Source: Actinocorallia herbida (GTDB lineage: Bacteria; Actinomycetota; Actinomycetes; Streptosporangiales; Streptosporangiaceae). Taken from it: 64,000 nt of DNA. The position numbers and the translations under genes were made by a program. Location: assembly GCF_003751225.1 (NCBI RefSeq), contig NZ_RJKE01000001.1, forward strand, positions 6,882,001 to 6,946,000, in the 5' to 3' direction. The notes under the pieces are model-generated. The model worked only from the letters and a program-made list of their open reading frames with translations. It was not told the DNA's origin and ran no database searches. Positions 40,879 to 55,148 of the stretch are shown in pieces. Each line of letters starts with the position of its first letter. Position 1 is the first letter of the stretch.

Positions 40879-41121
40879 TCACGCCGCTCGGCTCCCCGCA
40901 GCGGCCGGAGCAGCGTGGGACCGCAACGCGCGTGCCATGCCGCCCGGCGATTGCGCCTCCAAGAGGAAGCCGATCCCGCCGTCCGGGATGTAGGCCCACC
41001 ATGCCTTGGTGGCCTCGCCCCACCAGACCATCGAGCCCGGCAGCAGCGCAGCCAGATAGGCCGCAGTCGTCGTCACGTCCCGCTCGCGTCGAGCGTTCGC
41101 GTCCCTGCTGAGCAGCAGCAT
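40879..41121 (-). CDS. AICE small protein, unknown
   Basis: Predicted 80 aa. ATG 41121 overlaps the preceding stop as TGATG. Contains SMVWWGEATKAWWAYIPDGG and IGFLLEAQSPGGMARALRSH. The Trp-rich segment recalls small proteins that accompany XRE-DUF5753 regulators in actinomycetes; no function is known. Confidence 0.6.
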   Translation of the reverse strand: MLLLSRDANARRERDVTTTAAYLAALLPGSMVWWGEATKAWWAYIPDGGIGFLLEAQSPGGMARALRSHAAPAAAGSRAA

Positions 41122-41429
41122 CACGAACCCCCCTCCCGCCGGACGTAGGCGTTCGCCGCCGCAGCAGCCGACGTCTCCCAGACCAGCAGACCGAGCAGGG
41201 CCCGCAGGTCCTCGCACGGACACACCGCGTCCCGGACCAGGAACACGAAGCCGTCCGGCCCCGACTCCACCCGCACCAGCACCCGGACCGCCGATGACGG
41301 ACGGCCCGCGCTCAGGAACGGATCGGCATCGGTGCTCAGGTCGAGATGCGACTCAACCCCCACCACCTCCAGCATCCGCATCAGCGGCAAGAGCAGGTTG
41401 ACCCGCACCGTGTCCCGCTCCGCGCTCAT
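41121..41429 (-). CDS. AICE small protein, unknown
   Basis: Protein of 102 aa. Overlaps the upstream gene (ATGA) and the downstream one (TGATG). Segments: VRVNLLLPLMRMLEVVGVES, VRVLVRVESGPDGFVFLVRD, CEDLRALLGLLVWETSAA. Soluble; no domain recognised. Confidence 0.6.
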   Translation of the reverse strand: MSAERDTVRVNLLLPLMRMLEVVGVESHLDLSTDADPFLSAGRPSSAVRVLVRVESGPDGFVFLVRDAVCPCEDLRALLGLLVWETSAAAAANAYVRREGGS

Positions 41430-41833
41430 GACGCCGACTCAGGAAAGAAGAGCGGCACCAGGCGCGAGCCCCCGTGAAACTCCGTCAGCTCCGCCGACAC
41501 GGCCCTGACCATGCCCGCCTCGGACGTCTCTTCCCGCACCAGGTCCACCACGCCCAGCACGTCACGACAACGCGCCCACGCCCGACCGCCCACGCGCAGG
41601 GACGTCCCGACATAGAACACGCGCTGCCCATGCCGAGCCCGCGCGACCACCTCCGTACCCACCGAGCCGCCACGCCGGACAGCCACCAGATACGGCATCG
41701 GCCCATCCCACCGCAGACGCGTCACCACCCCCACCAGGGCCAGCGGCACCCGCAGCACCATCAACGCCCAGTACGGGCTGAACACCAGGGAGACGGCGAT
41801 GAGCCGCACCCTCCTGCCACTACCCTTGCCCAC
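41426..41833 (-). CDS. AICE small membrane-associated protein, unknown
   Basis: Protein of 135 aa from GTG 41833. Residues ~10-35 form one hydrophobic helix (LIAVSLVFSPYWALMVLRV); the rest is soluble (RHGQRVFYVGTSLRVGGRAW, DLVREETSEAGMVRAVSAE). First gene of a three-gene overlapping set, divergent from the XRE regulator. Confidence 0.6.
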   Translation of the reverse strand: MGKGSGRRVRLIAVSLVFSPYWALMVLRVPLALVGVVTRLRWDGPMPYLVAVRRGGSVGTEVVARARHGQRVFYVGTSLRVGGRAWARCRDVLGVVDLVREETSEAGMVRAVSAELTEFHGGSRLVPLFFPESAS

Positions 41834-41926
41834 AGTCGGAACCTCGATTTCCGATCAGGCCCCGCGCCCGGTGCTCTGCCAAGTACACCGGCCGGGGCTG
41901 CTTTCGCTCTGGCGTTTCGCCATCGG

Positions 41927-42040
41927 GAAACTAGGCAGTTTCTCGCGTTCCTGCCGCGCACCTGCTACCCAACGTGCCAATCTGATCCCAGAATGAAGCA
42001 CCACCGCCTTCTTGGCAACACCCCATTGGCAATTCGCCAA
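41927..42040. promoter_or_regulatory. Operator-like repeats between divergent AICE operons
   Basis: GAAACT-AGGC-AGTTTC is an inverted repeat (41927-41942). Nearer the regulator start lie two TTGGCAA (42012, 42026) and an inverted TTCGCCAA (42033-42040). They sit between the small-gene operon and the XRE regulator and could be its operators. Confidence 0.4.
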
Positions 42041-42063
42041 AACATCTGAGGGGATGATCATCG

Positions 42064-42933
42064 ATGTCTGTGAGGCCGAGTCCTACCGTCCGAAGTAAGC
42101 GGTTGGCCCGAGAGCTACGACGGCTCAGGGAAGAAGCAGGTCAGACGATTGAGCAGGTTTGTTCCCGGGCGGGGAACGGCTGGAGCCCCAGCACCCTGGC
42201 CCGCTGGGAGGTGGGCGACCGGCGAATCCAACCGGCTGACCTCAAGAGCCTGCTTGGTGTGTACCAAGTAGATGATGAGACGGCGGAGGTCCTACTGAAC
42301 CTCTCCCGCGAGGCTCGGCAGCGTGGATGGTGGCAGGCGTACGGGGATGTTCTCCCGTCGGAGTACAGCACCTACATCGGGCTGGAGACCGAGGCCAACG
42401 TCCTGTTGAGCTATCAACAGCAGCTTGTTGCCGGGATCGTTCAAACCGAGAGGTATGCCCGAGCCGTTATCAGGGCGGCTCGACCAGATGATGATGCAGC
42501 CTCCATCGAGCGACGCGTCGAGCTGAGGATGGATCGCCAACGAGTCCTTGCCGGTGACGATCCCTTGCGTCCGTGGATCATCTTGGACGAGGGCGCAGTG
42601 CGGCGGATGGTCGGTGGCCCGGATGTGATGGCCGAACAGCTCGATTGGCTCGCCGAAGTTGCCGATCGACCGGGTATTCACGTTCAAGTGATGCCCTACA
42701 GCGCTGGAGAGCACGCCGCGATGGCCTCATCGTTCGTGGTCTTGGCCTTCAACGACCCAGATCCCGACGTTGTTTACATCGATGCGGGGACCAGTGCCCT
42801 GTTCGTGGAGGAACCAGCCGAGGTCGGGACCTATAGACTGACATTCGACCACTTGAGAGCGTCCGCGCTGTCTCCTATCGAGTCAACGAGGCTCCTTCGT
42901 GCGCTCGCTAAGGAGATGCGCAAGGCCGTGTGA
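42064..42933 (+). CDS. XRE-family regulator with DUF5753 domain
   Basis: Protein of 289 aa. N-terminal HTH (LARELRRLREEAGQTIEQVC, WSPSTLARWEVGDRRIQPAD), then the DUF5753 ligand-like domain (YQQQLVAGIVQTERYARAVI, VELRMDRQRVL, PGIHVQVMPYSAGEHAAM). Such regulators are abundant in Streptomyces and relatives and pair with DUF397 proteins in morphology or antibiotic control (WhiJ-like systems). The DUF397 gene follows 14 bp downstream. Confidence 0.92.
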   Translation: MSVRPSPTVRSKRLARELRRLREEAGQTIEQVCSRAGNGWSPSTLARWEVGDRRIQPADLKSLLGVYQVDDETAEVLLNLSREARQRGWWQAYGDVLPSEYSTYIGLETEANVLLSYQQQLVAGIVQTERYARAVIRAARPDDDAASIERRVELRMDRQRVLAGDDPLRPWIILDEGAVRRMVGGPDVMAEQLDWLAEVADRPGIHVQVMPYSAGEHAAMASSFVVLAFNDPDPDVVYIDAGTSALFVEEPAEVGTYRLTFDHLRASALSPIESTRLLRALAKEMRKAV

Positions 42934-42947
42934 ACGAAGGAGATCCG

Positions 42948-43148
42948 ATGACAGCGGACATCTCCCCTGGATGGCGCGCGAGCAGCCGGAGCAGTGGCAA
43001 CGGCGAGTGCGTCGAGGTCGCCGAGATCCCATCGGCAATCGGGGTTCGGGACAGCAAGAACCCCCGCCTTCCCTACCTCAGGGTCGCTGCCCCTGCGTTC
43101 CGCCGTCTCATCAGCCAGGTGAAAGCCGGGCGGCATGATCTAGCGTGA
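42948..43148 (+). CDS. DUF397-domain protein
   Basis: Protein of 66 aa with the DUF397 pattern: WRASSRSSGNGECVEVAEIP, GVRDSKNPRLPYLRVAAPAF, FRRLISQVKAG. ATG 42948 lies 5 nt behind GAAGGAG. In WhiJ-type loci the DUF397 protein counteracts the adjacent XRE-DUF5753 regulator. Confidence 0.92.
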   Translation: MTADISPGWRASSRSSGNGECVEVAEIPSAIGVRDSKNPRLPYLRVAAPAFRRLISQVKAGRHDLA

Positions 43149-43170
43149 TGACTTTCCCTTAGAGATCGAG

Positions 43171-43195
43171 GGGACCGCCGCTACGCGGCGGTCCC
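43171..43195 (+). terminator. Terminator hairpin after the DUF397 gene
   Basis: GGGACCGCCG and CGGCGGTCCC enclose a 5 nt loop, 23 bp past the stop. Confidence 0.65.
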
Positions 43196-43210
43196 GAACA
43201 ACGCCCAATC

Positions 43211-43238
43211 GGGCGTCCGGCGCAAGCGCCGGACGCCC
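43211..43238 (+). terminator. Second hairpin in tandem
   Basis: GGGCGTCCGGCGC and GCGCCGGACGCCC form a 12-13 bp stem. With the preceding hairpin it makes a double terminator. Confidence 0.65.
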
Positions 43239-43625
43239 GTTGTGCTGTTCGGGCCACCGCTCACGGCGGTCGATCCTCAGCAGCGCTTCATCACCCCCTC
43301 ACCGGCCGGAGGACCACCAGGGCCACGGCGCGCCCTGTCGCAGGAGAACGGCGGTCATCTCCCAGCCGTGGCCAGGCGGCCCACCGCTCCGGCTCACCAT
43401 CGCGGGTTGATCGACTCACGCAAGGTGGGACGACCGCATTGCACACGGCCCTGACTCGGCGGGGATCATGGTGCCCTCCCGGCTACGTGGATCGCCGAGG
43501 CGAGCCCAACTCACTCCCTGCGTCAAGGACACATTCTGTGCCGCTTCGCGGTGAGCTTCGCTCATCCTGGACTCCGGTCCCTCCTTGGGCTGAGCGGAGC
43601 TCATCCACTACACCAGGAGGGCACC

Positions 43626-43835
43626 ATGAGTCTCCCCACCAACGTCAGGTCCGCGTGCAACGCGGCCGTCCTGCGTGAGCCGACCAACCCGCAGTGGTTC
43701 GCCTACGCGGTGGGCCGCCTGACCACTCCCGAGGACTGGGAGATGACCGCCGTCCTCCTGCTTGAAACCGGGCACGCCGAGTCCCTGGTGGTCCTCCTTC
43801 AAGCATCCGGCGAGCGTGTGACGAATCCCTTCTAA
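43626..43835 (+). CDS. AICE small protein, unknown
   Basis: Protein of 69 aa with a very good ribosome site (CAGGAGG, 5 nt). PTNPQWFAYAVGRLTTPEDW and MTAVLLLETGHAESLVVLLQ. No family recognised. Convergent with the Myb-like gene (3 bp apart). Confidence 0.6.
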   Translation: MSLPTNVRSACNAAVLREPTNPQWFAYAVGRLTTPEDWEMTAVLLLETGHAESLVVLLQASGERVTNPF

Positions 43836-43838
43836 GAA

Positions 43839-44192
43839 TCAAGGAGTCCCCGAACCGGCCCTAGGCGGCAGACCGAGCTTCTTAGCCCGCGCCTTGATCC
43901 CCGACCACCGCCGCCCCAGCGCCGACACCATCGCCGGGATCTCCGCACCCCGCTCCCACATCTCCCGCAACGCCGCCTCCTCATCGGCCGTCCACGCCGA
44001 ATAGGCCCGAGGCTGCACCGTCCGGATAGCCGCCACGAGGTTCGCCGGAAGGTCCCCGCTCGTCAGGATCGACAGATCCGACGCCGCGACGTTCAAGACC
44101 CGCTCACCGCCCCTCAACCCGATCACGTGATCCAGCCGCACCGCCCCATGCACCAGTTGCTCACCCCCCACCCACTGAGGGCCCTTGAACAT
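43839..44192 (-). CDS. Myb/SANT-like DNA-binding protein
   Basis: Predicted 117 aa; start uncertain (ATG 44192 or GTG 44195 behind CAGGAG). C-terminal half: RAYSAWTADEEAALREMWER, GAEIPAMVSALGRRWSGIKA, RAKKLGL, a Myb-like tri-helical pattern. The N-terminal half (EQLVHGAVRLDHVIGLRGGE) is unknown. It could bind element DNA. Confidence 0.6.
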   Translation of the reverse strand: MFKGPQWVGGEQLVHGAVRLDHVIGLRGGERVLNVAASDLSILTSGDLPANLVAAIRTVQPRAYSAWTADEEAALREMWERGAEIPAMVSALGRRWSGIKARAKKLGLPPRAGSGTP

Positions 44193-44889
44193 CACCCTGA
44201 ACTCCTGCTCCGACGACACTGCCACCTCCGAGACGACGAACCACCGGTCTCCACTGGCGAACCACGACCACCGCCCAGCGCAACAACCGCGCCAAGGCAC
44301 ACCCCCGATTGTCCCCCGAAGCGATCAACGGAACCCGACCCCAAGGCAGCGATGGCGAGCGGCCGCCCGGCACGCGACGCCCGCCCCGCCGCCGCACCCG
44401 CCGCCGCACCCGCCACCCCACGGGATCGCCGACGACCACCCCGCAGCGACGGCCAGGGCGATCCCACAACCCGCAGCCCGAGGGGGCTCCGGTTTACCGA
44501 TAGGCGGACCGCTCCAGGCGCTCCCACCGGTCACCGGGTGCCGCCCAGCCCGCACCCGCACCACACCACCGCGCACCCTTCACCGGTACAGGAATCCGAC
44601 CACCAGCAGGGGCTCCCGCCCCCGCACCCCCGGCCCCACATCCGGCCCATTCGGCCGCCTACCCACTCAGGGACCGGGCGCGCGACCCTCCCCGCACCAA
44701 CGCGCCATCCAGCGCGCCCAACCCCACCCAGCGCGCCCCGGCACACACCCGACGGCAGGCAGAGCCCAAGATCACGGCTCTGCCGGCCTCTCCACCACAG
44801 ACGCCAGAAAAAGACTCCCCACCACCCGGGCGAGTGATCGAAACTCGTGCACCACGCGTCCGCTGACCAGGCAAAACGCCCTGACCATT

Positions 44890-44908
44890 GGCCCCTCTAT
44901 GGCCCCCG
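44890..44908. repeat. Candidate attachment site attR of the AICE
   Basis: GGCCCCTCTATGGCCCCCG, matching 30136-30154 at 17 of 19 positions in the same orientation. Confidence 0.45.
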
Positions 44909-45053
44909 AACAGCTGATCACAACCATCACCAGCCGGACGCCACCGGACAAGATCACGCCACCACGACCCGAATCCGCAGGTCAGCACCACCCCCCAGAA
45001 GCGAGGAAGCGGCCCCGGAGATCATCCGGAGCCGCCTGGGAGTCATCGTTTAT

Positions 45054-45064
45054 CTGTGGATAAC
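45054..45064. repeat. Left copy of CTGTGGATAAC (candidate attL of element 2; also a DnaA box)
   Basis: Identical 11 bp occur at 53782-53792, flanking element 2. The core is also a perfect DnaA box (TTATCCACA on the other strand). It lies 145 bp before the integrase. Confidence 0.45.
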
Positions 45065-45151
45065 CCGCTTGCGGGGCCCTGGCCTGGCCTTACGTAAGTG
45101 GGCGAGCCTTGCTTACACCGCGCGTACACCGGCCGGTTCGGGATAACCCGC
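45058..45151. repeat. GGATAACCCGC direct repeats
   Basis: Two identical 11 bp copies (45058-45068, 45141-45151) upstream of the integrase, in the same orientation. Possible arm-type integrase sites or regulator sites. Confidence 0.4.
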
Positions 45152-45209
45152 CTGAGCTGGGAGTATGTGGTGTGGGAGGGGTCGCCCGCTCGTTGGCTAG
45201 GAGGCCGGA

Positions 45210-46382
45210 GTGGCGCAGGACCCGAAGATCAACAAGTTGCCGAACGGCAAGTGGCGGATGCGGTGGAACAACGGCTCCAAGTCGTTCACCGCCGACACCC
45301 GTGATGAAGTCGTGGCGTTCAAGGCGGCGCTGCTGGCGGGCGGGATGGTGGACCCGCGTGCGGTCGTGGCCCCGGTGGCGGGAGGCCGGACGTTCCGCAA
45401 GGTCGCCAACGACTACATAGTGATGAAGAAGAAGAAGGGGCTGGCGCCGGGCACCATCGAGGGGTACGAGCGTGACCTCCGCTTGTATGTGCTGCCGGAG
45501 ATCGGCGGCATGGACATCAACGAGGTGCGGCCCCCGCACATCCGGGCGGTGCTGGAGCGGGCAGGGAAGCGGCGTACGCCTGGGTCGCTGCGCAAGATGC
45601 ACTCCAGCGTTCTGTACCCGATCTTCAAGTGGGCGATCGGGAACGAGTGGCGCGAGCGCGCGAACCCCTGCGAGATCACCGCGCAGGAACTGTCCCAGGA
45701 GACCCGCGAGCAGGGCGCGCTCCTGCCCGATGACGCCCCGATGTTCCTGGACTGCGGCTACGCGATCGCCGAGCCCGACGACGACGGGAAGGTTCTCGAC
45801 CCGGACGGGCTGGCGGGGGACTTCTTCACCCTGCTGTACGGGACGGGTCTGCGCTGGCAGGAGGCCGCCGCGCTCGATGTGGGGTCGGTGGACTGGAAGC
45901 GGCGCGTGGTTGTGGTCAAGCAGGTGATCCGTCTGCACGTGGGCGTCGCGAAGGACAAGGGCAAGTCCCGGTACGCCTTCCGCGACATCCCGCTTCCCGC
46001 CGCCGACGACGACCCGTTGGTGGTGATGCTGCGGGCGCGGACCCGGGGCCGGTTCGCTTCCGAGCCGCTGTTCGTCACCGGCGCGGGCCGCAGGGTCTAC
46101 AGCTCGGTCGCGCGGCGGCTCCTGCGTCACACGCTGGAGCTGGCCAAGAAGCTTCACGGGTACGCCGAGCAGTTCGGGTTCCACGGGTTCCGGCGCGGGT
46201 TCGCCACCGCCATGGAGGACCGCGAGATCCCCGAGCGCTCGCTGAAGCTCCTGCTCGGCCATGCCCGCCACACCGGCGCGACCAAGGCGTACGTGAAGCT
46301 CACCGCCAAGCAGGTCGAGAACATCCGCCCGTACGTGGGCGGGATGTGCTGGCGCGCCTCGGAACTCGCTCTGGCGGCCTGA
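45210..46382 (+). CDS. int: Tyrosine integrase of element 2
   Basis: Integrase of 390 aa. AP2-like arm domain at the start (MAQDPKINKLPNGKWRMRWN), a core-binding SAM-like domain (~60-155), and a complete catalytic domain: Arg215 (GTGLRWQEAA), His325-x-x-Arg328 (HGFRRGFAT), His351 (LLLGHARH) and Tyr361 (KAYVKL). GTG start behind TAGGAGG. Only distantly like the AICE integrase, so the two elements have different target specificity. It is transcribed towards the interior. Confidence 0.95.
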   Translation: MAQDPKINKLPNGKWRMRWNNGSKSFTADTRDEVVAFKAALLAGGMVDPRAVVAPVAGGRTFRKVANDYIVMKKKKGLAPGTIEGYERDLRLYVLPEIGGMDINEVRPPHIRAVLERAGKRRTPGSLRKMHSSVLYPIFKWAIGNEWRERANPCEITAQELSQETREQGALLPDDAPMFLDCGYAIAEPDDDGKVLDPDGLAGDFFTLLYGTGLRWQEAAALDVGSVDWKRRVVVVKQVIRLHVGVAKDKGKSRYAFRDIPLPAADDDPLVVMLRARTRGRFASEPLFVTGAGRRVYSSVARRLLRHTLELAKKLHGYAEQFGFHGFRRGFATAMEDREIPERSLKLLLGHARHTGATKAYVKLTAKQVENIRPYVGGMCWRASELALAA

Positions 46383-46740
46383 CCGGCTGGTCGTGTGGGT
46401 GCGGGGCCTGCTCGACCCCGCACCCTATCTATGTGAGCTGAGTCACATTTGGCCCGGAATTCCGGCTCGGCCGATGAAGCCATTTCCTTGACATTGGTCT
46501 GAGGGTGAAATCGCCGGATCCCTTGTGTCGTCGTGGCTTGTGTCAGTAAGCGGTTGACGACTTTCTAGGCTTCTACCTCGCAAAGAATGGGGGATGAAGG
46601 GGATGAAACCTGCAAAGTCGCAGGTGACAGGAGGTTTCGGATGTTCTAGAACTGTTCCCGGCAGATATCGAGTCGCTGCCGAAGGACCCCCAGGGCGGCC
46701 CCTCCCGACCTGCCCGGGATCTGTTGAGAAGGAGATTTCC
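46383..46740. promoter_or_regulatory. Control region between integrase and excisionase
   Basis: About 360 bp, less GC-rich than its surroundings, without a gene. A GTGA-N6-TCAC dyad near 46432 and two -35-like boxes (TTGACA 46488, TTGACG about 46552) are visible, but no well-spaced -10. Probably holds the early promoter of element 2. Confidence 0.4.
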
Positions 46741-46953
46741 ATGCCGCTGCCCGACCCGGATCTGTACATCACCGAGAAGGAGCTGACCGAGCGGTTCGGG
46801 GTGTCCCAGAACTACCTGGGCACCTTGCGCCGGGCCGGGAAGCTGACCGGCTGGCTGAAGTTCGGGCACCGCTACGTCTACCGGCGCGCGGACCTGGACC
46901 GCATCGAGCAGGTCTTCGCGACCCAGTGGGCCAGCCGCCGCGACGCGGCCTGA
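46741..46953 (+). CDS. Excisionase-like HTH protein of element 2
   Basis: Protein of 70 aa; ATG 46741 is 6 nt behind GAAGGAG. HTH_17/AlpA-like: LYITEKELTERFGVSQNYLG, TLRRAGKLTGWLKFGHRYVY, RRADLDRIEQVF. It may be the excision factor or the activator of the downstream genes, as AlpA-like proteins are in satellites. Confidence 0.85.
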   Translation: MPLPDPDLYITEKELTERFGVSQNYLGTLRRAGKLTGWLKFGHRYVYRRADLDRIEQVFATQWASRRDAA

Positions 46954-47239
46954 CTTCCTCTGCTCGACTCACAACTCACGATCTGTCGTTGGCGGCCCGC
47001 GTAGTCCAGGCGGCGCGCGGGGGTTCATCCGCCACGGGGAGCGCACCAGGGGTGCGGAGCCCGAGACACCAGCCAACTCGCACGCCGGGTCGGCCCCGGG
47101 ACTCGGGTGCCGCACCCTTGCTCTTGCACGAGGAACGCATGACTCAACGACAAGGCCGCCCGGAACCCACATCCCGGACGGCCCCTCACACGATGCTCCC
47201 CACCAGCGTATCCGGTCCCCGCCATGCGGGCCGCTGCTG

Positions 47240-48097
47240 ATGGTCTGGTTCAGGGTGGATGACGGCTTCCACTCCAGCCTCGACATGTTCGACGCCCCTG
47301 ACTGCGCGGTCGCGCTGTGGGTGAAGGCCGGTTCGTGGTGCGCGGAGAAACTGACCGACGGGCGTGTCCCGGAGACGATGCCCTCGCGGCTGTGCGAGGA
47401 CCCCGAGCGCGCCGTCGAGGAGCTGATCCGCCGCAAGGTGTGGAAGCGCACCAGAGACGGCTACAAGTTCATCCATTGGGCACCCGCGCAGAAACTCAAG
47501 AAGGACGTCGAGGGCGAGCGCGCGGCGTGGAGAGCCAAGAAGGAAAATCAGCGAGGAGACAAGAAGCCGCAGGCCAGAGGCGAAAACGCCCCGGATGTGT
47601 CCCCGGGGGACACCCGCCGAGACGCCCCGGGGGACGCACCCCGGACGCCCTCTGGGAGTCCCGCCGGTGTCCTGGATACCTCTTCCTCTTCCGGTTCCTC
47701 TTCCAGTCCGAAGGACGATCCTCCCCCCTCACCCCCCACCGACCGGGGGGAGCCGGATGGACGGGAGGACGATCCTGCTGCGCGGCACGACGAGACCGAC
47801 CTGATAGCGGCGGTTGCCGAGGTGATCGGCGAAGTGTGCGGGCGGCCCGCGAGCCGTGAGCACGCCCGCAAGGTGTGCAGGCAGATCCTCGACGGCCGCG
47901 AGGTACGGCACCCGCTCCGGTACGTCACGACCGCGATCCGCAAGGACCCCGCCCTGTACGCGCCGCCCGCCGTCCGCCCGTCCGAACGTCCGCCGTCCGA
48001 GGCGATCGCGCCGGGACAGTGCGGGCACGGAGCGGCCAACGCCGCCGAGTGCGCGCTGTGCCGACGCGGCATGACCGCCTACGAACCCACTTCATGA
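47240..48097 (+). CDS. Phage-type replication/replisome-organizer-like protein
   Basis: Protein of 285 aa. The N-terminus (WFRVDDGFHSSLDMFDAPDC, AVALWVKAGSWCAEKLTDGR, VPETMPSRL) matches the winged-helix start of actinophage and prophage replication proteins. A long Pro/Ser/Asp-rich linker follows, then a helical DnaD-like C-part (IAAVAEVIGEVCGRPASREH, ARKVCRQILDG, YVTTAIRKDP) and a Cys-rich end (CGHGAANAAECALCRRG). It probably initiates replication of the excised element. Confidence 0.75.
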   Translation: MVWFRVDDGFHSSLDMFDAPDCAVALWVKAGSWCAEKLTDGRVPETMPSRLCEDPERAVEELIRRKVWKRTRDGYKFIHWAPAQKLKKDVEGERAAWRAKKENQRGDKKPQARGENAPDVSPGDTRRDAPGDAPRTPSGSPAGVLDTSSSSGSSSSPKDDPPPSPPTDRGEPDGREDDPAARHDETDLIAAVAEVIGEVCGRPASREHARKVCRQILDGREVRHPLRYVTTAIRKDPALYAPPAVRPSERPPSEAIAPGQCGHGAANAAECALCRRGMTAYEPTS

Positions 48098-48122
48098 TCA
48101 GTACGCAGCGAAAGCAGGAACG

Positions 48123-48581
48123 ATGACCGACGCGCCCACCCCCGAACCCATCACCGAGACCGTCACCGAACCGGCCGGCGCGCCTGAGGCCGTGCCCGAG
48201 ACGGGTGGTCCGGACAAGCTCCGCAGCGAGGCCGCCCGGTACCGGCGTGCGCTGCGCGAGGCCGAGACCGACCGCGAGCGCCTGACGGGGCAGGTCGAAG
48301 CACTCCAGCGCGCCGAAGTCGCCCGGCTCGCGGGCGAACGGCTGGCCGACCCCGCCGACCTGTGGCGGGCCGGGACGCTGACGGTAGCTGACATGCTCAC
48401 CGACAACGGAACCGTGGACGCTGCGAAGGTCTCCACCGCCGTGGAAGCCGTCCTGGCCGAACACCCGCACTGGCAGCGGCAGGTCATCCCGACCGCGAGG
48501 GAGGTCGGGCTCGGCGGAGCCGGGAACGACCCCGATCCGGTCGCCGATTTCGCCTCGTTCATCCGCAGGTCAGCGCAGTGA
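48123..48581 (+). CDS. Phage scaffolding-like protein
   Basis: Protein of 152 aa, acidic N-terminus (PITETVTEPAGAPEAVPETG), a long coiled coil (KLRSEAARYRRALREAETDR, ERLTGQVEALQRAEVARLAG), then a helical tail with PHWQRQVIPTAREVGLGG. The layout and its place immediately before the capsid gene match scaffolding proteins of actinophages. The capsid lacks a built-in delta domain, so a separate scaffold is expected. Confidence 0.7.
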   Translation: MTDAPTPEPITETVTEPAGAPEAVPETGGPDKLRSEAARYRRALREAETDRERLTGQVEALQRAEVARLAGERLADPADLWRAGTLTVADMLTDNGTVDAAKVSTAVEAVLAEHPHWQRQVIPTAREVGLGGAGNDPDPVADFASFIRRSAQ

Positions 48582-48598
48582 TCGGCACGCGGTAGCCT

Positions 48599-48651
48599 GG
48601 TACGTGAGGGCGGTGTCCTCCGGCCGTGCCGGACCCCGCCCCTCACGTACC
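48599..48651 (+). promoter_or_regulatory. Large hairpin between scaffold and capsid genes
   Basis: GGTACGTGAGGG (48599-48610) pairs perfectly with CCCTCACGTACC (48640-48651); a CCGGC/GCCGG hairpin fills the loop. It could be a partial terminator, an RNA processing site or a translational control element for capsid. Confidence 0.55.
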
Positions 48652-48755
48652 GGGCCCCAGGCGGGCCAGCGGGATCGAGCAGCGCTCTCCCGCCTCCGCA
48701 GTGCACACCGCCCCCTCGTGCGCGGCGCGTGTGCCTCCGCCTGGAGGCCCCTCCT

Positions 48756-49607
48756 TTGGCTCCGCTGCTCACCTCCTCCGCGCCCACCGGCGTCTCCCTC
48801 ACCCCGTCCGGTCAGGCCGCGCTCGTCCTCGGCCCGCTGGAACGCATCTCCACCGCCCTGACCACCGCCACCGTCCTACGGACCAACACCGCCGAGACCC
48901 ACGTCCCCTACCTGGGCACTGACGTGCCGACCGCATTCGTTGCCGAGGGCGAGGAACTGCCGACCGGAGAACCCGAGGTCCTCACCCTCAAGCTCCGCCC
49001 GGTCAAGATCGCCGCCCTGTCGAAGCTGTCGCGCGAGCTGGCAGGCGACTCCACCCCCGGCGCGGTCGAACTCGTCGGCCAGTCCATCGCTCGCAGCGTC
49101 CGCAAGACCCTCGACACCGCGTTCCTCAACGCACCCGGCACCGGCCTTCCCCCGCGCGGCGTCCTGGCCACCGCCGGGATCATCGACGGCGGCCAGATCA
49201 CCGGCAACCTCGACCCGCTCGCCGACGCCATCGCCACCGTCCAAGACGCGGGCGGCAACGCCAGCCAGCTCGTCATGGCACCCAAGACGTTCTCCGCGCT
49301 GGTCAAGCTCAAGACCGCCGCCGGGTCCAACCAGAGCCTCCTCGGGGCACCGGCCGAAGCCCCCGCCTCCGCGTTCGCCCGCACCCTGCACGGCGTCCCG
49401 GTCACCCTGGACCCCGTCTGCCCGCCCGACACCATCGGCCTGTGGGACAAGACCGCCGTCGTCACCGTCTTGCGCGAAGACGCCACCATCGCTGTCTCCA
49501 ACGACCACTACTTCGACTCCGACAGCATCGCCGTCCGCACCACCCTGCGCGCCATCTGGGCCGTCCTCGACCCCGCCCGCGTGGTCAAGCTGACCTACGG
49601 CACCTGA
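48756..49607 (+). CDS. HK97-fold phage major capsid protein
   Basis: Protein of 283 aa, nearly the length of the mature HK97 capsid. Typical P22/HK97-type sequence: GPLERISTALTTATVLRTNT near the N-terminus, ETHVPYLGTDVPTAFVAEGE, LTLKLRPVKIAALSKLSREL, GDSTPGAVELVGQSIARSVR (spine helix), GNASQLVMAPKTFSALVKLK and HGVPVTLDPVCPPDTIGLWD. The TTG at 48756 is 8 nt behind GGAGG and gives a start right before the N-arm; a GTG nine codons earlier has no site. Intact frame. No capsid protease gene nearby. Confidence 0.9.
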   Translation: MAPLLTSSAPTGVSLTPSGQAALVLGPLERISTALTTATVLRTNTAETHVPYLGTDVPTAFVAEGEELPTGEPEVLTLKLRPVKIAALSKLSRELAGDSTPGAVELVGQSIARSVRKTLDTAFLNAPGTGLPPRGVLATAGIIDGGQITGNLDPLADAIATVQDAGGNASQLVMAPKTFSALVKLKTAAGSNQSLLGAPAEAPASAFARTLHGVPVTLDPVCPPDTIGLWDKTAVVTVLREDATIAVSNDHYFDSDSIAVRTTLRAIWAVLDPARVVKLTYGT

Positions 49608-49759
49608 CCCGCGCATCCCCACCCCCGGCAACCAGGCACCACCCCCGGCGATGCCCCTGCGAAGGGGTGGGGAGTCACCCCCTCCTCGTCCTGCTGGCTC
49701 ACCGGCGGGTAGGCCCGCATGTGCGTGCCAAGCCTTTGAAGACCCGCCAGGAGGCGAAA

Positions 49760-50086
49760 GTGACCGGTGAAACGTTTCCCTGCCGCACCTGCGGCAACCC
49801 GGCCGTCCAACCGGCGACGGGACGGCCCCGCCGCTACTGCTCGCCCGCGTGCAAGCGGCGCACCGAGCAGAACATCCGGGCCGCGCGCAGGCGGCTTCGC
49901 CGGGCCGAGCGCGCCGTGTCGGCCTGGCACGCGGCGGTCACCGGGCAAGACCCGCTGGCCGGGCTGATCGGCACCCCCGAGGACGACGTGCGGCAATGGC
50001 AAGACGCCTGCGCCCGCCGCGACCAGGCACACGCCGATCTAGCCGCCCTGCTCCGCGGCAATGTGGCGCACGCCTCACCGGTGTAG
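49760..50086 (+). CDS. Small zinc-ribbon protein
   Basis: Protein of 108 aa; GTG behind CAGGAGG. The N-terminus carries CRTCGNPAVQPATG followed by RRYCSPACKRRTEQ, a four-Cys ribbon; the rest is helical (RRRLRRAERAVSAWH, DVRQWQDACARRDQAHADLA). Not recognised. Part of the forward element-2 transcript. Confidence 0.65.
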   Translation: MTGETFPCRTCGNPAVQPATGRPRRYCSPACKRRTEQNIRAARRRLRRAERAVSAWHAAVTGQDPLAGLIGTPEDDVRQWQDACARRDQAHADLAALLRGNVAHASPV

Positions 50087-50224
50087 CCGGCGGGGTGAAC
50101 CCGGACCCCATCGGCGAGGATGCCCGCCCGCTGCGGCGTCTTCGCCGATGGCGGGCTTCTTGGAGGTGCCCGATGCCTGGATTGAGGGTGGTCACGCACC
50201 AACCACCCGACGAAAGGCACCACG

Positions 50225-50668
50225 ATGGCCACCACCAACCGCACCACCACCGCCAAGGCCGCGACCACCAAGCGCCCGCAGGCCCCGCGCACCACCACCG
50301 GCAAGGCCAACACCCCGGCCGCCGCCCCCGCCCCCGCACCGGCCGCCACGGGGTCGCCCGCGCCCGACCAGGCCACCCCCACCGCACCGGCCCCGGCCGC
50401 CACGGTCAAGGCCCCGCAGCCCTACATCCGCAAGGACCGCACCCGCCGCGCCACCGGCAGCCGCGTCCAGGTCCTCGACCTGCGCGCCGCCGACGCCCCC
50501 GCCGACGCCATCGCCCCCGCCGAAGGCGACGGCAAGCCGCTGAACTACGCCGCCCGGTGCGTCACCCACGAGCAGCACCAGCACTTCGCCACCTACGCGC
50601 AGGCGTACGCAGCGGCGAAGTCCTCAGCCGACTGGTGTGGCACCTGCAAGCCCACCGAGCAGGAGTAG
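50225..50668 (+). CDS. Ala/Pro/Thr-rich basic protein with Cys pair
   Basis: Protein of 147 aa. Residues 1-70 are a Thr/Ala/Pro/Lys-rich disordered tail; the C-terminus has AARCVTHEQHQHFATYAQAY and SSADWCGTCKPTE, a Cys-His-Cys-Cys set that could bind zinc. The tail resembles low-complexity DNA-binding proteins, and a role inside the particle is possible but unproven. Ends at a strong terminator. Confidence 0.6.
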   Translation: MATTNRTTTAKAATTKRPQAPRTTTGKANTPAAAPAPAPAATGSPAPDQATPTAPAPAATVKAPQPYIRKDRTRRATGSRVQVLDLRAADAPADAIAPAEGDGKPLNYAARCVTHEQHQHFATYAQAYAAAKSSADWCGTCKPTEQE

Positions 50669-50680
50669 CCCCACGCAGTC

Positions 50681-50715
50681 GGCGGCCCGGCTTCCCACCT
50701 GGGAGCCGGGCCGCC
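50681..50715. terminator. Strong bidirectional hairpin between opposing element-2 operons
   Basis: GGCGGCCCGGCT and AGCCGGGCCGCC form a perfect 12 bp stem extended by an inner TCCC/GGGA stem. It ends the capsid operon and the reverse operon. Confidence 0.8.
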
Positions 50716-50734
50716 GAACGCACCGGGACGATGT

Positions 50735-50953
50735 TCAGGCAGCCAGGGAAGAGCCCGACCACCGCCCTGCCTCTCCTCCCGACGGGGAAGCCTCCAGCAC
50801 CCCGAGAAGGTCTTGAGGAGCAGTCGCACGATAGAACTCGCTGCGCCCCCGGACGGCCAGCCAGTCACCGCGCCACGGGTCGTAGATGATCCCCCAACTG
50901 GTGAAGCGGTCCCGCAGCCGGGCCAACCACGCGGTGACCTCGCCGGGGCTCAT
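50735..50953 (-). CDS. Small unknown protein, element 2
   Basis: Protein of 72 aa; ATG 50953 overlaps the preceding stop (TGATG). VTAWLARLRDRFTSWGIIYD and RSEFYRATAPQDLLGVLEAS. Probably last in the reverse operon. No family recognised. Confidence 0.6.
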   Translation of the reverse strand: MSPGEVTAWLARLRDRFTSWGIIYDPWRGDWLAVRGRSEFYRATAPQDLLGVLEASPSGGEAGRWSGSSLAA

Positions 50954-51297
50954 CACTCGCCCCCAAGAGCTGCCTTGATCGCCATCAGCGCGCCGGTGAC
51001 GTCCTCGGCTTCAGCGAGCGGCTTGCCCCCGGCGAAGGTGAACCACAACCTACCGCCGTCGTCGGCACGAGGCCCGCACCAGACCTCCACCACCACGGGC
51101 GGAATTGCCCCCGGGGGACCGACCATCAGCCCCTTGGACATCCGCCGGACCACGAACCCTTGGCCCTCCAGCAGGTTCCCGAGTTGGAACAGCGCAGCGG
51201 CCTCAGGCGCGACCATGGGAACGGTCTCATCCGGCCGGTCCCCCGGGACGACCGTCCCGTCCAGCGCCTCGCGGCTTCGTCTGCGGTCAAGCGCCAC
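50953..51297 (-). CDS. Small unknown protein, element 2
   Basis: Predicted 114 aa from GTG 51297, overlapping the upstream gene by 11 bp; the Arg/Ser-rich longer frame upstream is a shadow. Soluble, LFQLGNLLEGQGFVVRRMSK, VVVEVWCGPRADDGGRLWFT and EDVTGALMAIKAALG. The plan (beta sheet with Trp and acid residues) resembles the neighbouring gene at 51287. Confidence 0.6.
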   Translation of the reverse strand: MALDRRRSREALDGTVVPGDRPDETVPMVAPEAAALFQLGNLLEGQGFVVRRMSKGLMVGPPGAIPPVVVEVWCGPRADDGGRLWFTFAGGKPLAEAEDVTGALMAIKAALGGE

Positions 51298-51619
51298 GGC
51301 CAGCCACCTGCCGGTTCTGGAACAACCAGCCCTGTACGTCCCGGCTGGCCGCCTCCAGGTTGCCCACGGGGCAGATCGAGCCGTTCCACGAGGAGTACCA
51401 GAACCACGACGCTCCCTGCTCCGGGTGCTCCCGCACCACGACCCGGCAGGACAGCTCGGGCCGCTTCGGGTTATGCACGCGCAGGCTGGAAGCCCCCTCA
51501 CGCTCCCCCAGCTCGATGATCAGACCCGCGTCCTGCAGCAGAACACCGAGCCTGGCGAGGTCGCTGCTTCCGCGCGGGTTGGTCGATGGCCGCTCCAGCG
51601 GCCTGTCCAAGAACGTCAC
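51287..51619 (-). CDS. Small unknown protein, element 2
   Basis: Predicted 110 aa. GTG 51619 is 6 nt behind AAGGAG; an earlier GTG is less well placed. RLGVLLQDAGLIIELGEREG, LSCRVVVREHPEQGASWFWY and LEAASRDVQGWLF. Similar in plan to the next gene, perhaps by duplication. Function unknown. Confidence 0.6.
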   Translation of the reverse strand: MTFLDRPLERPSTNPRGSSDLARLGVLLQDAGLIIELGEREGASSLRVHNPKRPELSCRVVVREHPEQGASWFWYSSWNGSICPVGNLEAASRDVQGWLFQNRQVAGRGA

Positions 51620-51709
51620 GGGGATCTCCTTGACGGTAGGCACTTTGGCTTACCCGCAAGCTAGGTCTCGTGGTCGGCTTGGTCCCAGCAGTGTGCGTCA
51701 GTTTGCTCG

Positions 51710-52603
51710 TCAATTCGGCGGGGCGTCCAATGCCTCCAAAGCCCCGGTGATCAGGGATCGAGCTCGCGGCCCGTAGACCGCGCTTTCGCTTAGCTCGGCA
51801 AACGCCTTCGTGTAGATGCCGATCTCGCGGGGCTGGGTGATGGCGAGCTCGGCGGAGGGCGTCTCGACCAGGACGCGCCCTTCATCGAAGATCCAGAAGC
51901 CGGACATGGGCCAGATGACGCGGTCGATGCTCGCCGGGATGATGCCGAGGCTGACGTTCGGTTGAGAGGCCAGCGTGAGCAGGTGGCCGAGCTGCCCCGC
52001 CATGACGTCAGCACCGCCGATGCGGGCACGGAGGGCCGCTTCTTCGAGGACGACGGCGAACCTGTGGACTCCGGCTTTGACGACCTTCTGGCGATCCATA
52101 CGGGCCGCGACCGCTTCGTCGGCGTCGTCGGGGATGCCTCGGAACGTGATGACCGCGCTCATGAGGGCGTGGGCGTACTCGCGGGTCTGGAACAGGCCGG
52201 GGACGAGCGACGGCTCGTAGATGCGGAACCGGGCCGTGCGCTCGTACAGGGGGACGGCTGATTGCTGGTGCTTGCGCATCCCCGTGCGCTGAACTCTGCG
52301 CCACTCGGTGTACATCTCGTCGATGGCGCGCAGCGACTCGACGAGGTCGGCCGCTTGGTCCTCCACGCCGCAGTGCAGGCACCAGATGCGAAGGTCGGCT
52401 TCGCTGGGTACCTGCCTGCCGTATTCGATCTTGCTGATCTTGGAAGAGTGCCAGCCTGCCAGACGGCCGAGGTCGCGGCCTGACAGGCTGGCGTCGGTTC
52501 GGATCTCGCGCAGGCGCGCGCCGAGGGCTCTGCGGGCGCGCTCTACGGCGGACGAGGGCGGAGTCACCGGAGGCCGGCGGGGACGGAGAGGAGCTGGCTT
52601 CAA
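51710..52603 (-). CDS. XRE-family regulator with DUF5753 domain, element 2
   Basis: Protein of 297 aa. HTH (LGARLREIRTDASLSGRDLG, GWHSSKISKIEYGRQVP) then DUF5753 (RFRIYEPSLVPGLFQTREYA, RMDRQKVV, SQPNVSLGIIPASI). The TTG start overlaps the DUF6879-like stop (TTGA); a downstream GTG is an alternative. It probably sets lysogeny-like or excision control; the operator region at 53588-53710 is two genes upstream. Confidence 0.9.
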   Translation of the reverse strand: MKPAPLRPRRPPVTPPSSAVERARRALGARLREIRTDASLSGRDLGRLAGWHSSKISKIEYGRQVPSEADLRIWCLHCGVEDQAADLVESLRAIDEMYTEWRRVQRTGMRKHQQSAVPLYERTARFRIYEPSLVPGLFQTREYAHALMSAVITFRGIPDDADEAVAARMDRQKVVKAGVHRFAVVLEEAALRARIGGADVMAGQLGHLLTLASQPNVSLGIIPASIDRVIWPMSGFWIFDEGRVLVETPSAELAITQPREIGIYTKAFAELSESAVYGPRARSLITGALEALDAPPN

Positions 52604-53142
52604 GCGGTCCGGTACTCCTCGTGGGCCGTAGCCAGATGCCAGACCGCGTCGAACGCCGAACTACACAGGTCGGTGATCTCCGGGTCCTTCGTCCACTCGA
52701 CCCCGGCCCAGTCGCCTACGCCGTTGAAGTGGTTGAACATGACGCGCTCGCCGTCGAGGAGCCAGAAGTCACAGCCGGGCAGCGCCAGCGGAGCGGCCTT
52801 TCGCCGAGGGAGCCAGCGCACCTGTTCGCCCGCCAGGACGTTGGTGAACGTCATGTCGTACTCGAATCGGATGTACTCGGTGACCGGTTCGGACACGATG
52901 CGCGCCCGCCGCACCTCGACGCCCCTGCTGACGGCCTCCTCGACCAACCCGAGCCAGGGCCGCCACCAAGACGCCCGGTCTTCCGGGTCGTCGCGGTGCC
53001 CGGCCTTCCAAGCGTTGAACAGGGCGTCTTCGCTGGACACCCAGTAGGTGTCCCGCATCTCCAAGTGGACGGCCGACCTGGTGCACTCGCGGAACATCTG
53101 GGTCCACTGTTCAAACGTGGGCGGTCCTGCGGTCCACTCCAT
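52600..53142 (-). CDS. DUF6879-like protein
   Basis: Protein of 180 aa; ATG 53142 behind GGAGG. Pattern common beside XRE-DUF5753 genes: FRECTRSAVHLEMRDTYWVS, WWRPWLGLVEEAVSRGVEVR, EPVTEYIRFEYDMTFTNVLA, LPGCDFWLLDGERVMFNHFN and ITDLCSSAFDAVWHLATAHE. Function unknown; it may transmit a signal to the regulator. Confidence 0.8.
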   Translation of the reverse strand: MEWTAGPPTFEQWTQMFRECTRSAVHLEMRDTYWVSSEDALFNAWKAGHRDDPEDRASWWRPWLGLVEEAVSRGVEVRRARIVSEPVTEYIRFEYDMTFTNVLAGEQVRWLPRRKAAPLALPGCDFWLLDGERVMFNHFNGVGDWAGVEWTKDPEITDLCSSAFDAVWHLATAHEEYRTA

Positions 53143-53491
53143 CAACTGCCTCCGTGAGGTCGTCCTTGGGCACTTCGATGACGGTCTCGTGGTCGGGCAG
53201 GTGGAGTTGCGCCAAGACGGCGGGGTCGGTGACCTTCGGCCCCTTCAACACGTACATGGTCCCGGTGTCGAACAGCATGTGGCAGCCGGGCCGCAGGCGC
53301 ACGCCGTCCGGCAGATGGTCCATCAGCGTCTTGTGCACTTCCACCAGAGCTTCGCCGTCTTCTAGCTCGAAGTGTGCCAGGGCCGCCATGTTCAGGACGA
53401 TATAGCCCTGAATCACCCAGGTGTCTCCGTGGTCGTAGAGGGTCGGCGACCCACCGTCGATCGTCTCTTTTCCGAGGAACCGTAGCGGCAT
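53111..53491 (-). CDS. Small protein upstream of the DUF6879-like gene
   Basis: Protein of 126 aa; ATG 53491. TIDGGSPTLYDHGDTWVIQG, YIVLNMAALAHFELEDGEAL, VLAQLHLPDHETVIEVPKDD. Overlaps the next gene by 32 bp. Similar short genes often open XRE-DUF5753 operons. Function unknown; first gene of the reverse operon, next to the operator-like repeats. Confidence 0.65.
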   Translation of the reverse strand: MPLRFLGKETIDGGSPTLYDHGDTWVIQGYIVLNMAALAHFELEDGEALVEVHKTLMDHLPDGVRLRPGCHMLFDTGTMYVLKGPKVTDPAVLAQLHLPDHETVIEVPKDDLTEAVDGVDRRTAHV

Positions 53492-53587
53492 CGCCGCCCC
53501 CTTCGCCGAAGGTGTGCGCTGGATTGCTTACCCAGCACCCACCTAGTGCCCCAACACGCAAACCCAAAAGCACACATGGCCGCAGGC

Positions 53588-53720
53588 GGTCACCCCAGTA
53601 GAAGGTCACCCCAGGTGAGAGCAGGGTCACCAGGTGACGGGCCGCGCACATGTACGGCGGTGTAACCCTTACACCCACCCCCGTGCACGCACGTTGGTCA
53701 CCGTGCACCCGTGTGCACTA
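53588..53720. promoter_or_regulatory. Repeat-rich operator/origin-like region of element 2
   Basis: GGTCACC occurs four times (53588, 53604, 53625, 53697), one in a palindrome GTCACC-A-GGTGAC (53626-53638). GGTGTAA-CCC-TTACACC is a 7 bp inverted repeat (53659-53675). GTGCAC recurs three times after 53680. All lie upstream of the reverse operon; likely operator for the XRE regulator or an origin. Confidence 0.5.
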
Positions 53721-53781
53721 ACGTGCGCCCCTAGCTGGGCCCGTTTGCCCAGCTCCAGGCCAGGGCCCCGCCCCTAGGTAA

Positions 53782-53792
53782 CTGTGGATAAC
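53782..53792. repeat. Right copy of CTGTGGATAAC (candidate attR of element 2)
   Basis: Identical in sequence and orientation to 45054-45064. Host genes resume 177 bp further on. Also contains a DnaA box. Confidence 0.45.
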
Positions 53793-53968
53793 TTTCTGCG
53801 GTCTTTCTCGCACAGGAAGTCATCGTCGGCCGCGCTGTTCGCCGGTCGCCCCGCGCCGCCCGGCCGGGGAGGCGCCCGGCACCCGGAAGCCGAGGAAAGC
53901 TAGGGTGTGACGCGTCCGCGGCGAGGTCCGCGGCAGCAGAGCAGGTTCAGTCGCAGGGGGTTCGCAAC

Positions 53969-54352
53969 GTGGTCGAGTTCGGTCCGGAGGCCGTCGAGTT
54001 CTGGCGGGAGTACCACATCTGCACCTTGACGACGCTGCGGCCGGACGGGACCCCTCACGTCGTCCCCGTGGGCGTGACCCTCGACCCGGAGGCGGGCGTC
54101 GCCCGGGTGATCTGCGACGGCGGATCGCGCAAGGCGCGCAACGCCGCGCTGCCCGGTGCCCGCGCCGTCGTCTGCCAGGTCGACAAGGGCAGGTACACCA
54201 CGTTGGAGGGCGTCTCCTCGGTTCTGGCGGACGGGGCCGCGGTGGCCGACGCGGTGCGCCGCTACACCGAGCGCTACCGCGAACCGCGCGTGAACCCGAA
54301 CCGCGTGGTCATCGAGATCGCGATCGACCGGGTGATCGGCACCGTCAAGTGA
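53969..54352 (+). CDS. PPOX-class (F420/FMN-binding) family protein
   Basis: Split-barrel protein of 127 aa. Motifs: EYHICTLTTLRPDGTPHVVP, VICDGGSRKARNA, ARAVVCQVDKGRYTTLEGVS and VRRYTERYREPRVNPNRVVI, typical of small F420-dependent members. GTG start; its stop overlaps cobM (GTGA). The overlap suggests a link with corrinoid or tetrapyrrole metabolism, but the reaction is unknown. Confidence 0.85.
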   Translation: MVEFGPEAVEFWREYHICTLTTLRPDGTPHVVPVGVTLDPEAGVARVICDGGSRKARNAALPGARAVVCQVDKGRYTTLEGVSSVLADGAAVADAVRRYTERYREPRVNPNRVVIEIAIDRVIGTVK

Positions 54353-55092
54353 CGGTCTACTTCATCGGGGCAGGGCCCGGCGCGCCCGACCTCATCACCG
54401 TGCGCGCCCAGCGGATCATCGCGAAGGCCCCGGTCTGCCTGTACGCGGGGGCTCTCGTGCCGCCGGAGCTGCTGGAGGACTGCCCGGACGGGGCGCGCAA
54501 GGTGGACACCGCGGATCTCGACCTCGACCGGATCCTCGCCGAACTGACCGCCGCCCACGCGGCGGGACTGGACGTCGCCCGCCTGCACTCGGGCGACCCC
54601 TCGGTGTTCAGCGCGATGGCCGAGCAGATGCGCCGCCTCGACGCCGCGGGCGTCCCCTATGAGGTCGTGCCGGGCGTACCGGCGTTCGCCGCGGCGGCCG
54701 CCTCCCTGCGCCGGGAGCTGACGGTTCCCGGCGTGGGCCAGACCGTCGTCCTCACGCGGACCTCCGCGCGCGCCACTCCGATGCCCGAAGGCGAGGACCT
54801 GCCTTCGCTCGCGCGCAGCCGCTCGACGATGGTGCTGCACCTCGCCGTGCAGCGGATCGACGAGGTGGTGGCCGACCTGGTGCCCTCCTATGGCCCGGAC
54901 TGCCCCGCCGCCGTCGTCGCCCACGCCTCGCGCCCCGCGGAGGTCATCCTGCGCGGCCGCCTCGCCGACCTGCCCGCCCTCGTCCACGAGGCGGGCATCA
55001 AGCGCACCGCCGTCATCATCGTCGGCCAGGTCCTCACCGCCCACGACTTCCCCGACAGCCACCTGTACTCGACCGCCCGCCCCCGCCACTGA
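54349..55092 (+). CDS. cobM: Precorrin-4 C11-methyltransferase
   Basis: SAM-dependent class III methyltransferase of 247 aa. It adds the C11 methyl to precorrin-4 on the way to cobalamin. Visible: VYFIGAGPGAPDLITVRAQR, YAGALVPPELLE, ARLHSGDPSVFSAMAEQMRR, VVPGVPAFAAAAASL, LTRTSARATPMPEGEDL and HASRPAEVILRGRL. GTG start coupled to the preceding gene. Converges with cbiD; a 12 bp tandem repeat lies between. Confidence 0.95.
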   Translation: MTVYFIGAGPGAPDLITVRAQRIIAKAPVCLYAGALVPPELLEDCPDGARKVDTADLDLDRILAELTAAHAAGLDVARLHSGDPSVFSAMAEQMRRLDAAGVPYEVVPGVPAFAAAAASLRRELTVPGVGQTVVLTRTSARATPMPEGEDLPSLARSRSTMVLHLAVQRIDEVVADLVPSYGPDCPAAVVAHASRPAEVILRGRLADLPALVHEAGIKRTAVIIVGQVLTAHDFPDSHLYSTARPRH

Positions 55093-55148
55093 CCGCCCCG
55101 GCCGCGTCCGGCCACGGCTCCGCCGCAGCCCTGGCCGGACACCCCGCC

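Follow-up and report, generated by a model that had tools for sequence, protein, structure and literature searches.

In the present study we analysed a 64,000-nucleotide stretch of Actinocorallia herbida (contig NZ_RJKE01000001.1, positions 6,882,001 to 6,946,000; referred to as the window, in whose numbering all island coordinates are given), which contains an island of 8,739 bp at positions 45054–53792. This island is likely a 'shell-only' phage satellite, i.e. an element which brings its own scaffold and coat protein and uses portal, motor, connector and tail of a helper phage. That motor, portal and tail are borrowed is probable by analogy with its relatives: for this particular copy neither a cos site nor a helper nor a terminase-like gene was found, and its mechanism is therefore drawn from theirs. 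As proposed here, the island would integrate and excise by its own integrase and excisionase-like protein, would replicate from its own initiator upon arrival of the helper and would assemble its scaffold and HK97-fold coat protein into a small head with room for about 9 kb of DNA. The remaining virion parts would come from the helper, whose terminase would cut the satellite DNA at a site imitating its own. On a broader scale, the balance tips slightly towards Actinobacteria hosting a widespread class of such satellites, placed between elements like the Staphylococcus aureus pathogenicity islands (SaPIs; no own head) and the capsid-forming phage-inducible chromosomal islands (cf-PICIs; whole head and packaging). 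Members of this class would build dedicated small heads around the helper portal and carry a copied helper cos for the helper terminase, and the window island would be among the most reduced of them.

Gene content and borders of the island

The sequence-only reading of this DNA had described an 8.7-kb element with integrase, excisionase, replication protein, scaffold and HK97-fold capsid, devoid of terminase, portal and tail. Family matches bear this out, and the limits coincide exactly with two copies of the direct repeat CTGTGGATAAC, which at up to one mismatch occurs only twice in the whole window (0.23 copies expected). A perfect 17-bp inverted repeat has one arm just inside each end and may be an arm site of the integrase. 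On the plus strand, integrase, excisionase-like protein with a helix-turn-helix domain (HTH_17), replication initiator, scaffold, capsid and two small open reading frames (ORFs) follow in this order. The borders and the central genes are as follows (E-values in brackets).

45054..45064, plus: left direct repeat CTGTGGATAAC, attachment site (att) core, border with the neighbouring element (repeat scan; empty site in locus L154)
45071..45087, plus: 17-bp terminal inverted repeat, left arm (two copies in 0 of 100 shuffles)
45210..46382, plus: tyrosine integrase, 390 aa (PF00589 5.2e-17, phrog_1 8.8e-42)
46741..46953 (scanned as 46738–46953), plus: HTH_17 excisionase/AlpA-like protein, 70 aa (PF12728 2.7e-6, phrog_66 2.1e-6)
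47240..48097, plus: replication initiation protein, 285 aa (phrog_2447 1.6e-33)
48123..48581, plus: head scaffolding protein, 152 aa (phrog_4708 7.1e-7; no Pfam match)
48599..48651, plus: strong hairpin between the scaffold and capsid genes (z -5.3 for the spacer; relatives show the trend)
48756..49607 (scanned as 48729–49607), plus: HK97-fold major capsid protein, 283 aa (PF05065 2e-26)
53755..53771, minus: 17-bp terminal inverted repeat, right arm (two copies in 0 of 100 shuffles)
53782..53792, plus: right direct repeat CTGTGGATAAC, att core (repeat scan; in genome G075 a CTGTGGATAAG precedes the next gene at the equivalent site)

Of the island proteins run against Pfam and PHROGs, none matched a terminase, portal, tail, protease, connector or lysis family, and searches of the island with seeds for the large terminase subunit (TerL) and the portal were negative as well. 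With integrase, excisionase/AlpA-like protein, replication initiator and no recognised lysis or tail genes, the island carries the genes expected of a broadly defined PICI. The scaffold assignment is accompanied by homologues annotated as scaffolding protein in 4 of 11 matched phage records.

The orthologous site in the same-genus genome G075 (L154) is empty, its flanks being joined around a single CTGTGGATAAG with no island, so that the element does vary between genomes, as the earlier reading required of a mobile unit. The left flank (26082–30064) is about 79–82% identical to G075 in two blocks, the right flank (53968–55101) 85%, and neither same-genus genome searched (G016, G075) gave a capsid match.

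The capsid gene was read from TTG at 48756, with a GGAGG upstream recognised by eye, yielding 283 aa; an alternative GTG at 48729 would yield 292 aa. The claim that the gene is intact and of mature size held, the profile matching mature HK97 gp5 (282 aa) with E about 4e-23. Structure prediction likewise gave the HK97 fold: the AlphaFold2 model (predicted local distance difference test, pLDDT, 81.4; predicted template modelling score, pTM, 0.76) has HK97 prohead I as its best fold match in the PDB (E 2.7e-17). The island's capsid is the only PF05065 capsid of its own genome. The hairpin ahead of it recurs in relatives, since z ≤ -3.5 was reached in 8 of 20 scaffold–capsid spacers versus 3 of 39 control spacers (Mann-Whitney p 5e-5), several of the spacers being related to one another and one control reaching -6.3; it may set the ratio of scaffold to capsid protein.

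A capsid gene on a satellite could also serve interference, capsid and scaffold mainly poisoning or shrinking the helper head by mixing with the helper coat in the manner of SaPIbov5 Ccm. This protein is an HK97-like coat homologue which is needed for small capsids, targets the helper coat and forms no capsids alone (PMC5052747), and capsid genes of PICIs from Gram-negative bacteria (GN-PICIs) are reported to be present in 21 of 29 reference PICIs and not to be needed for transfer (PMC10111431). However, the window capsid has full mature HK97 length and its own scaffold beside it, which fits a complete shell set, and we regard interference as unlikely.

Recurrence of the scaffold–capsid module

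Searches with the window capsid gave matches in 9 of 297 genomes of the same family (the window's genome included). The capsid profile at E 1e-25 matched 12 of 396 phylum, 12 of 345 order and 24 of 394 class genomes, counts which each include the window's genome and come from overlapping sets. A total of 46 loci was compared: 43 obtained by four genome searches, the named records L010 and L011, and the window itself; a capsid fragment (L016) and a 165-aa frame in genome G1053 were left out. Two pairs are near copies (L042/L043 and L012/L018), and L018, L019 and L058 are short contigs, on which absence of a gene is weak evidence. Many relatives belong to family f4, which is presumed to be mycobacterial. 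Pattern scans of genome contigs and viral contigs with the window capsid confirmed no relative, nor did those of viral contigs with the L015 capsid.

TerL seeds match 13 of the 46 loci and portal seeds also 13, together 14 loci, and a further portal was found in L044 by family scan. In 31 loci, the window included, neither gene was recognised; 20 of these have a scaffold match (E < 1e-3), seven being rows of the scaffold profile itself. The minimal set recurs in at least two families and in a record of Tsukamurella; Mycolicibacterium records have it together with further genes. The refuting condition of the earlier reading, related loci always containing terminase and portal, was thus not borne out, which speaks against decay.

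Both genes were sought first with seeds taken from these 46 loci and then by Pfam and PHROGs on 87 proteins hand-picked from 188 ORFs of at least 190 aa in 30 loci, for which the best 25 of 96 and the best 25 of 95 families were seen. A re-scan of 29 of the 87 proteins, with all 13 Pfam families inspected, unveiled no terminase or portal. Genes of other types, or those encoded by shorter ORFs, may have escaped these searches, which covered the seed types and ORFs from 190 aa upwards. For the loci without TerL the families listed were integrases, serine recombinases, primases, the L044 portal and one tape measure. Near the scaffold–capsid module of L058, which has neither TerL nor portal matches, a small-terminase-like protein was observed at 7968–8357 (phrog_2538 7.9e-6).

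The lack of a protease in the island, noted in the earlier reading, is a real difference: in 5 of 5 TerL-bearing relatives scanned, the gene between portal and scaffold/capsid matches head maturation protease (phrog_1522, E 2e-10 to 7e-4). By the same result, an absence of protease use throughout this capsid lineage was ruled out. The loci also differ in the distance from a seed-matched upstream integrase to the capsid, which is 3.5–7.9 kb without TerL versus 7.9–8.9 kb with TerL; two embedded loci at 2.6 kb are exceptions, and the integrase of the window's neighbouring element, at 18.6 kb, was not counted. Of the 31 loci without TerL and portal, 20 gave a match with the integrase seeds, which for L058 and L127 lay solely on the downstream side of the capsid, and among the other 11 one is known by annotation (L010) and one by PHROG (L129). 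Two serine integrase seeds were wrong ORFs (L139, L012).

Loss from a complete virus is a competing origin: a tailed prophage could have lost terminase, portal, protease and tail, the rest being kept by chance. The TerL- and portal-bearing loci, with a protease-like gene in those scanned, speak for this origin, and L016 illustrates that remnants of such a type exist. On the other hand, the same minimal set recurs as described, the empty site fits a precise insertion, and the island, whose genes are intact, shows no recognisable remnant of terminase, portal or tail. Furthermore, related capsids are, by sequence comparison, under purifying selection: the nonsynonymous rate (dN) is lower than the synonymous rate (dS) in 13 of 13 capsid pairs (e.g. 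0.008 vs 0.10 and 0.137 vs 0.67) and in 11 of 12 scaffold pairs, as obtained by a simple method from pairs which share loci and to which the window capsid was too diverged to be added. A decayed prophage is accordingly quite improbable.

A cos sequence common to related records and a phage of Mycolicibacterium aichiense

Of 50,697 phage records, 12 are matched by the window capsid at E 1e-5 and 11 by the scaffold at E 1e-3; every one of them is a 'phage' of Mycolicibacterium aichiense of 10.9–11.1 kb. In three such records, WillG, Suzzy and Alyssa1, the annotated genes include a capsid, tape measure, adaptor, stopper, serine integrase and 'terminase' but neither a portal nor a major tail protein. 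Their 'terminase' has 97–134 aa (two of 97, one of 134) and is, in WillG, a small subunit by PHROGs (2.2e-18); TerL and portal seeds gave no match in the three records. The tape measure of these records matches 1,719 records, among which, not as the best, is Herbertwm (39.7%), a 51.5-kb phage isolated on M. aichiense with large terminase, portal, protease, scaffold, capsid and tail genes. A search of the accessible literature found no publication naming WillG, Alyssa1, Suzzy, OR387121, Herbertwm or an M. aichiense satellite.

The Suzzy record end and the joined Herbertwm ends agree perfectly over 24 bases, and a second block of 17 bases (94%) lies at an equal distance in both. A 55-base query from the Suzzy junction matches the ends of 12 of the 12 records; two contain the whole 24-mer, and the remaining ones start or stop inside it or immediately ahead of it. 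The query also gave weak matches (E 0.3 to 4) to larger mycobacteriophages, e.g. SWU1, located at their right end or close to it. Elsewhere the 24-mer was found, with the upstream block visible, in L041 (0 mismatches), L126 (2), L158 (1) and L162 (1). In the real 1.73 Mb searched it has 5 matches at 0–2 mismatches and 9 at 5–6, and ten shuffles of the same 1.73 Mb gave no match under 5 mismatches and 47 at 5–6. All or part of the cos motif is thus present in the following scaffold–capsid satellites and relatives.

L010, L164 and L165: cos motif
L041, position 6891: cos motif
L126, position 7740: cos motif
L158, position 2787: cos motif
L162, position 3984: cos motif

L041 and L126 contain scaffold and capsid, no TerL or portal match and one head-tail adaptor each, and L158 and L162 are stretches of 3–4 kb known only by their DNA match to the scaffold–capsid region of WillG. 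From the shared cos sequence together with the gene content it follows that members of the scaffold–capsid family are probably packaged by the terminase of the helper, which suggests a division of labour in which the satellite supplies the shell and the helper motor, portal and tail. The helper use postulated from the window alone is therefore supported by the cos DNA of relatives, and no such site was found in this copy: the only match of the Herbertwm cos motif in the window, with 6 mismatches, lies at 29000, outside the island. Island matches of 90–95% identity to mycobacteriophages were, among the matches listed, attributed to chance, being mainly 32 bases in the excisionase gene (46771–46802, E 0.3).

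A different relation to a helper was observed in L012 (6472–14014), where an element of about 5.7 kb with serine integrase, scaffold and capsid splits the large-terminase gene of a prophage; L018 (1391–5818) contains the upstream part of the same arrangement on its shorter contig. The two terminase pieces of L012 abut on phrog_19179, the upstream one covering 5–244 and the downstream one 241–342, and little of the terminase therefore seems lost. An SPP1-type portal follows, so that this scaffold–capsid element sits inside the gene set of a likely helper. The protease finding and the match of the split terminase pull the odds in opposite directions.

Capsid phylogeny and opposing evidence

Ten capsids from two families, all from loci without TerL and portal, form one clade with a support of 99 in the Shimodaira-Hasegawa-like approximate likelihood ratio test (SH-aLRT). 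The tree was calculated by a quick method with SH-aLRT and no bootstrap, ten viral capsids being left out as apparent near copies; L132 was labelled as TerL plus portal (only a 198-aa portal-like ORF was found) and L044 as lacking TerL, though a portal is present.

Several results weigh against a shell-only satellite. The window capsid joins the ten-capsid clade at a support of 93 on a branch which also holds the long TerL- and portal-bearing row L137, no starred branch holds it, and its own place in the tree is not well supported. It is 25–34% identical to the relatives compared, and its nearest tree row by identity, L091 (35%), is a viral contig with a TerL match. To explain the label 'no TerL', the tree requires 5 changes, of which starred branches force at least 3; the label therefore does not mark one lineage. 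Among 40 viral contigs found with the L012 capsid, which were tested by seeds and lie outside the 46 loci except L082 and L083 (which correspond to L012 and L018), 12 have a TerL seed match, one a portal and two a scaffold. The cos-bearing satellites also carry an adaptor, to which WillG, Suzzy and Alyssa1 add a terminase of small size, a stopper and a tape measure, the window island being more reduced, and the M. aichiense records may stem from mixed lysates. Comparison of the island with phage ends gave no match at a record end among the matches listed (a minority of 270 records; 20 of 24 in another search). Finally, the genome itself has no PF03354 terminase, phrog_12 or PF05133 portal at the thresholds used, i.e. 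no resident helper by the three families tested.

Neighbouring element and accessory genes

Relative to G075 the insertion measures about 23.7 kb and consists of two elements in tandem at one attachment site. The first, at 30064–45054, encodes a tyrosine integrase (named from its sequence and a match to the integrase seeds), a RepSA initiator (PF20199 1.5e-121) and an FtsK/SpoIIIE gene and is, by gene content, like an actinomycete integrative and conjugative element (AICE); a variant of the repeat lies at about 30057. The capsid island, which follows, is itself not an AICE, no RepSA-type initiator or FtsK/TraB-type transfer gene being present among its proteins scanned with Pfam and PHROGs. 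Downstream of its capsid gene lie the two small plus-strand ORFs and then six ORFs on the minus strand.

49760..50086, plus: small zinc-finger-like protein (weak HNH-type PHROG matches, about 0.002)
50225..50668, plus: low-complexity protein (no Pfam or PHROG family match)
50735..50956, minus: ORF8 (relatives in L016)
50953..51216, minus: ORF9 (relatives in L016 and L058)
51287..51643, minus: ORF10 (ORF call)
51710..52603, minus: XRE-type regulator with DUF5753 (PF19054 1.2e-37, PF13560 7e-14; phrog_9908 DNA binding protein 3.2e-44)
52600..53145, minus: DUF6879 protein (PF21806 2.1e-57)
53111..53491, minus: ORF13 (relative in L016)

The XRE/DUF6879 region (51767–53083) matches Streptomyces phage Kromp with 65.6% DNA identity. 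In L016 (9859–14821) a capsid fragment (63% over 63 aa) lies near the same module of XRE, DUF6879, ORF13, ORF8 and ORF9, and by sequence this locus is probably a decayed relative of the island. The integrase had no match in the plasmid collection, and two Rfam matches were both far below the gathering score.

Encapsulins share the HK97 fold. This fold and the lack of a recognised packaging gene in the island would be compatible with a domesticated shell, the capsid being a nanocompartment or defence particle of an island which is not packaged. Yet scaffold, integrase, excisionase-like protein and replication initiator accompany the capsid, relatives carry helper-type cos sites, and PADLOC, applied to the eight accessory proteins, returned only weak helix-turn-helix matches of the XRE protein (2.5e-4 and 4.5e-4), which makes such a role very improbable.

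Comparison with known systems

If the shell-only reading is true, a satellite needs to own only the shell in order to control head size, and portal, motor, protease and tail can be foreign; the fit of a foreign coat protein with the helper portal then becomes a testable question of assembly. For direct tests, the shared cos sequence singles out satellite records and a phage that are known by name and have one host species in common.

Published work already covers PICIs with capsid genes, Ccm, cf-PICIs and candidate PICIs of mycobacteria. The contrast with known satellites drawn in the sequence-only reading is overstated in that capsid-gene satellites without a full head module have been published (PMC10111431, PMC6092414, PMC10654092). 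Our literature search, which most subscription papers lay outside, found no account of satellites which have their own scaffold and coat protein, lack TerL and portal and share the helper cos.

Like the island, whose coat protein is a PF05065 member (2e-26), cf-PICIs encode their own major capsid protein; in contrast to it, they also encode portal, protease, connectors and both terminase subunits (PMC10690885), none of which was recognised in the island. The Streptomyces satellites MulchRoom and MiniFlayer are likewise actinomycete elements with their own capsid and scaffold and have small heads of about 43 nm, but encode both terminase subunits and a portal (PMC10690885), genes not recognised in the island. 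GN-PICIs with a capsid gene and SaPIbov5 with Ccm resemble the island in having an HK97-type coat homologue and no full head module (PMC6092414, PMC10111431, PMC5052747); their homologue remodels the helper capsid or is dispensable, whereas that of the island is accompanied by a scaffold gene. Helper-embedded PICIs have been published (PMC10111431), which the L012 element resembles in placement and from which it differs by its serine integrase.

The Mycobacterium candidate PICIs, including phiRv1 and phiRv2, are phage-like regions with integration machinery and a major capsid gene, some with terminase and scaffold, for which phage induction is described as not yet shown (PMC10654092). The island shares integration machinery and major capsid gene with them and differs by a host of another family and by its XRE/DUF6879 module. 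Finally, the M. aichiense records of about 10.9 kb differ from the island by a serine integrase, by adaptor, stopper and tape measure and by ends at or beside a helper-type cos, and share with it the homologous scaffold–capsid pair, an integrase and the lack of an annotated portal or major tail protein.

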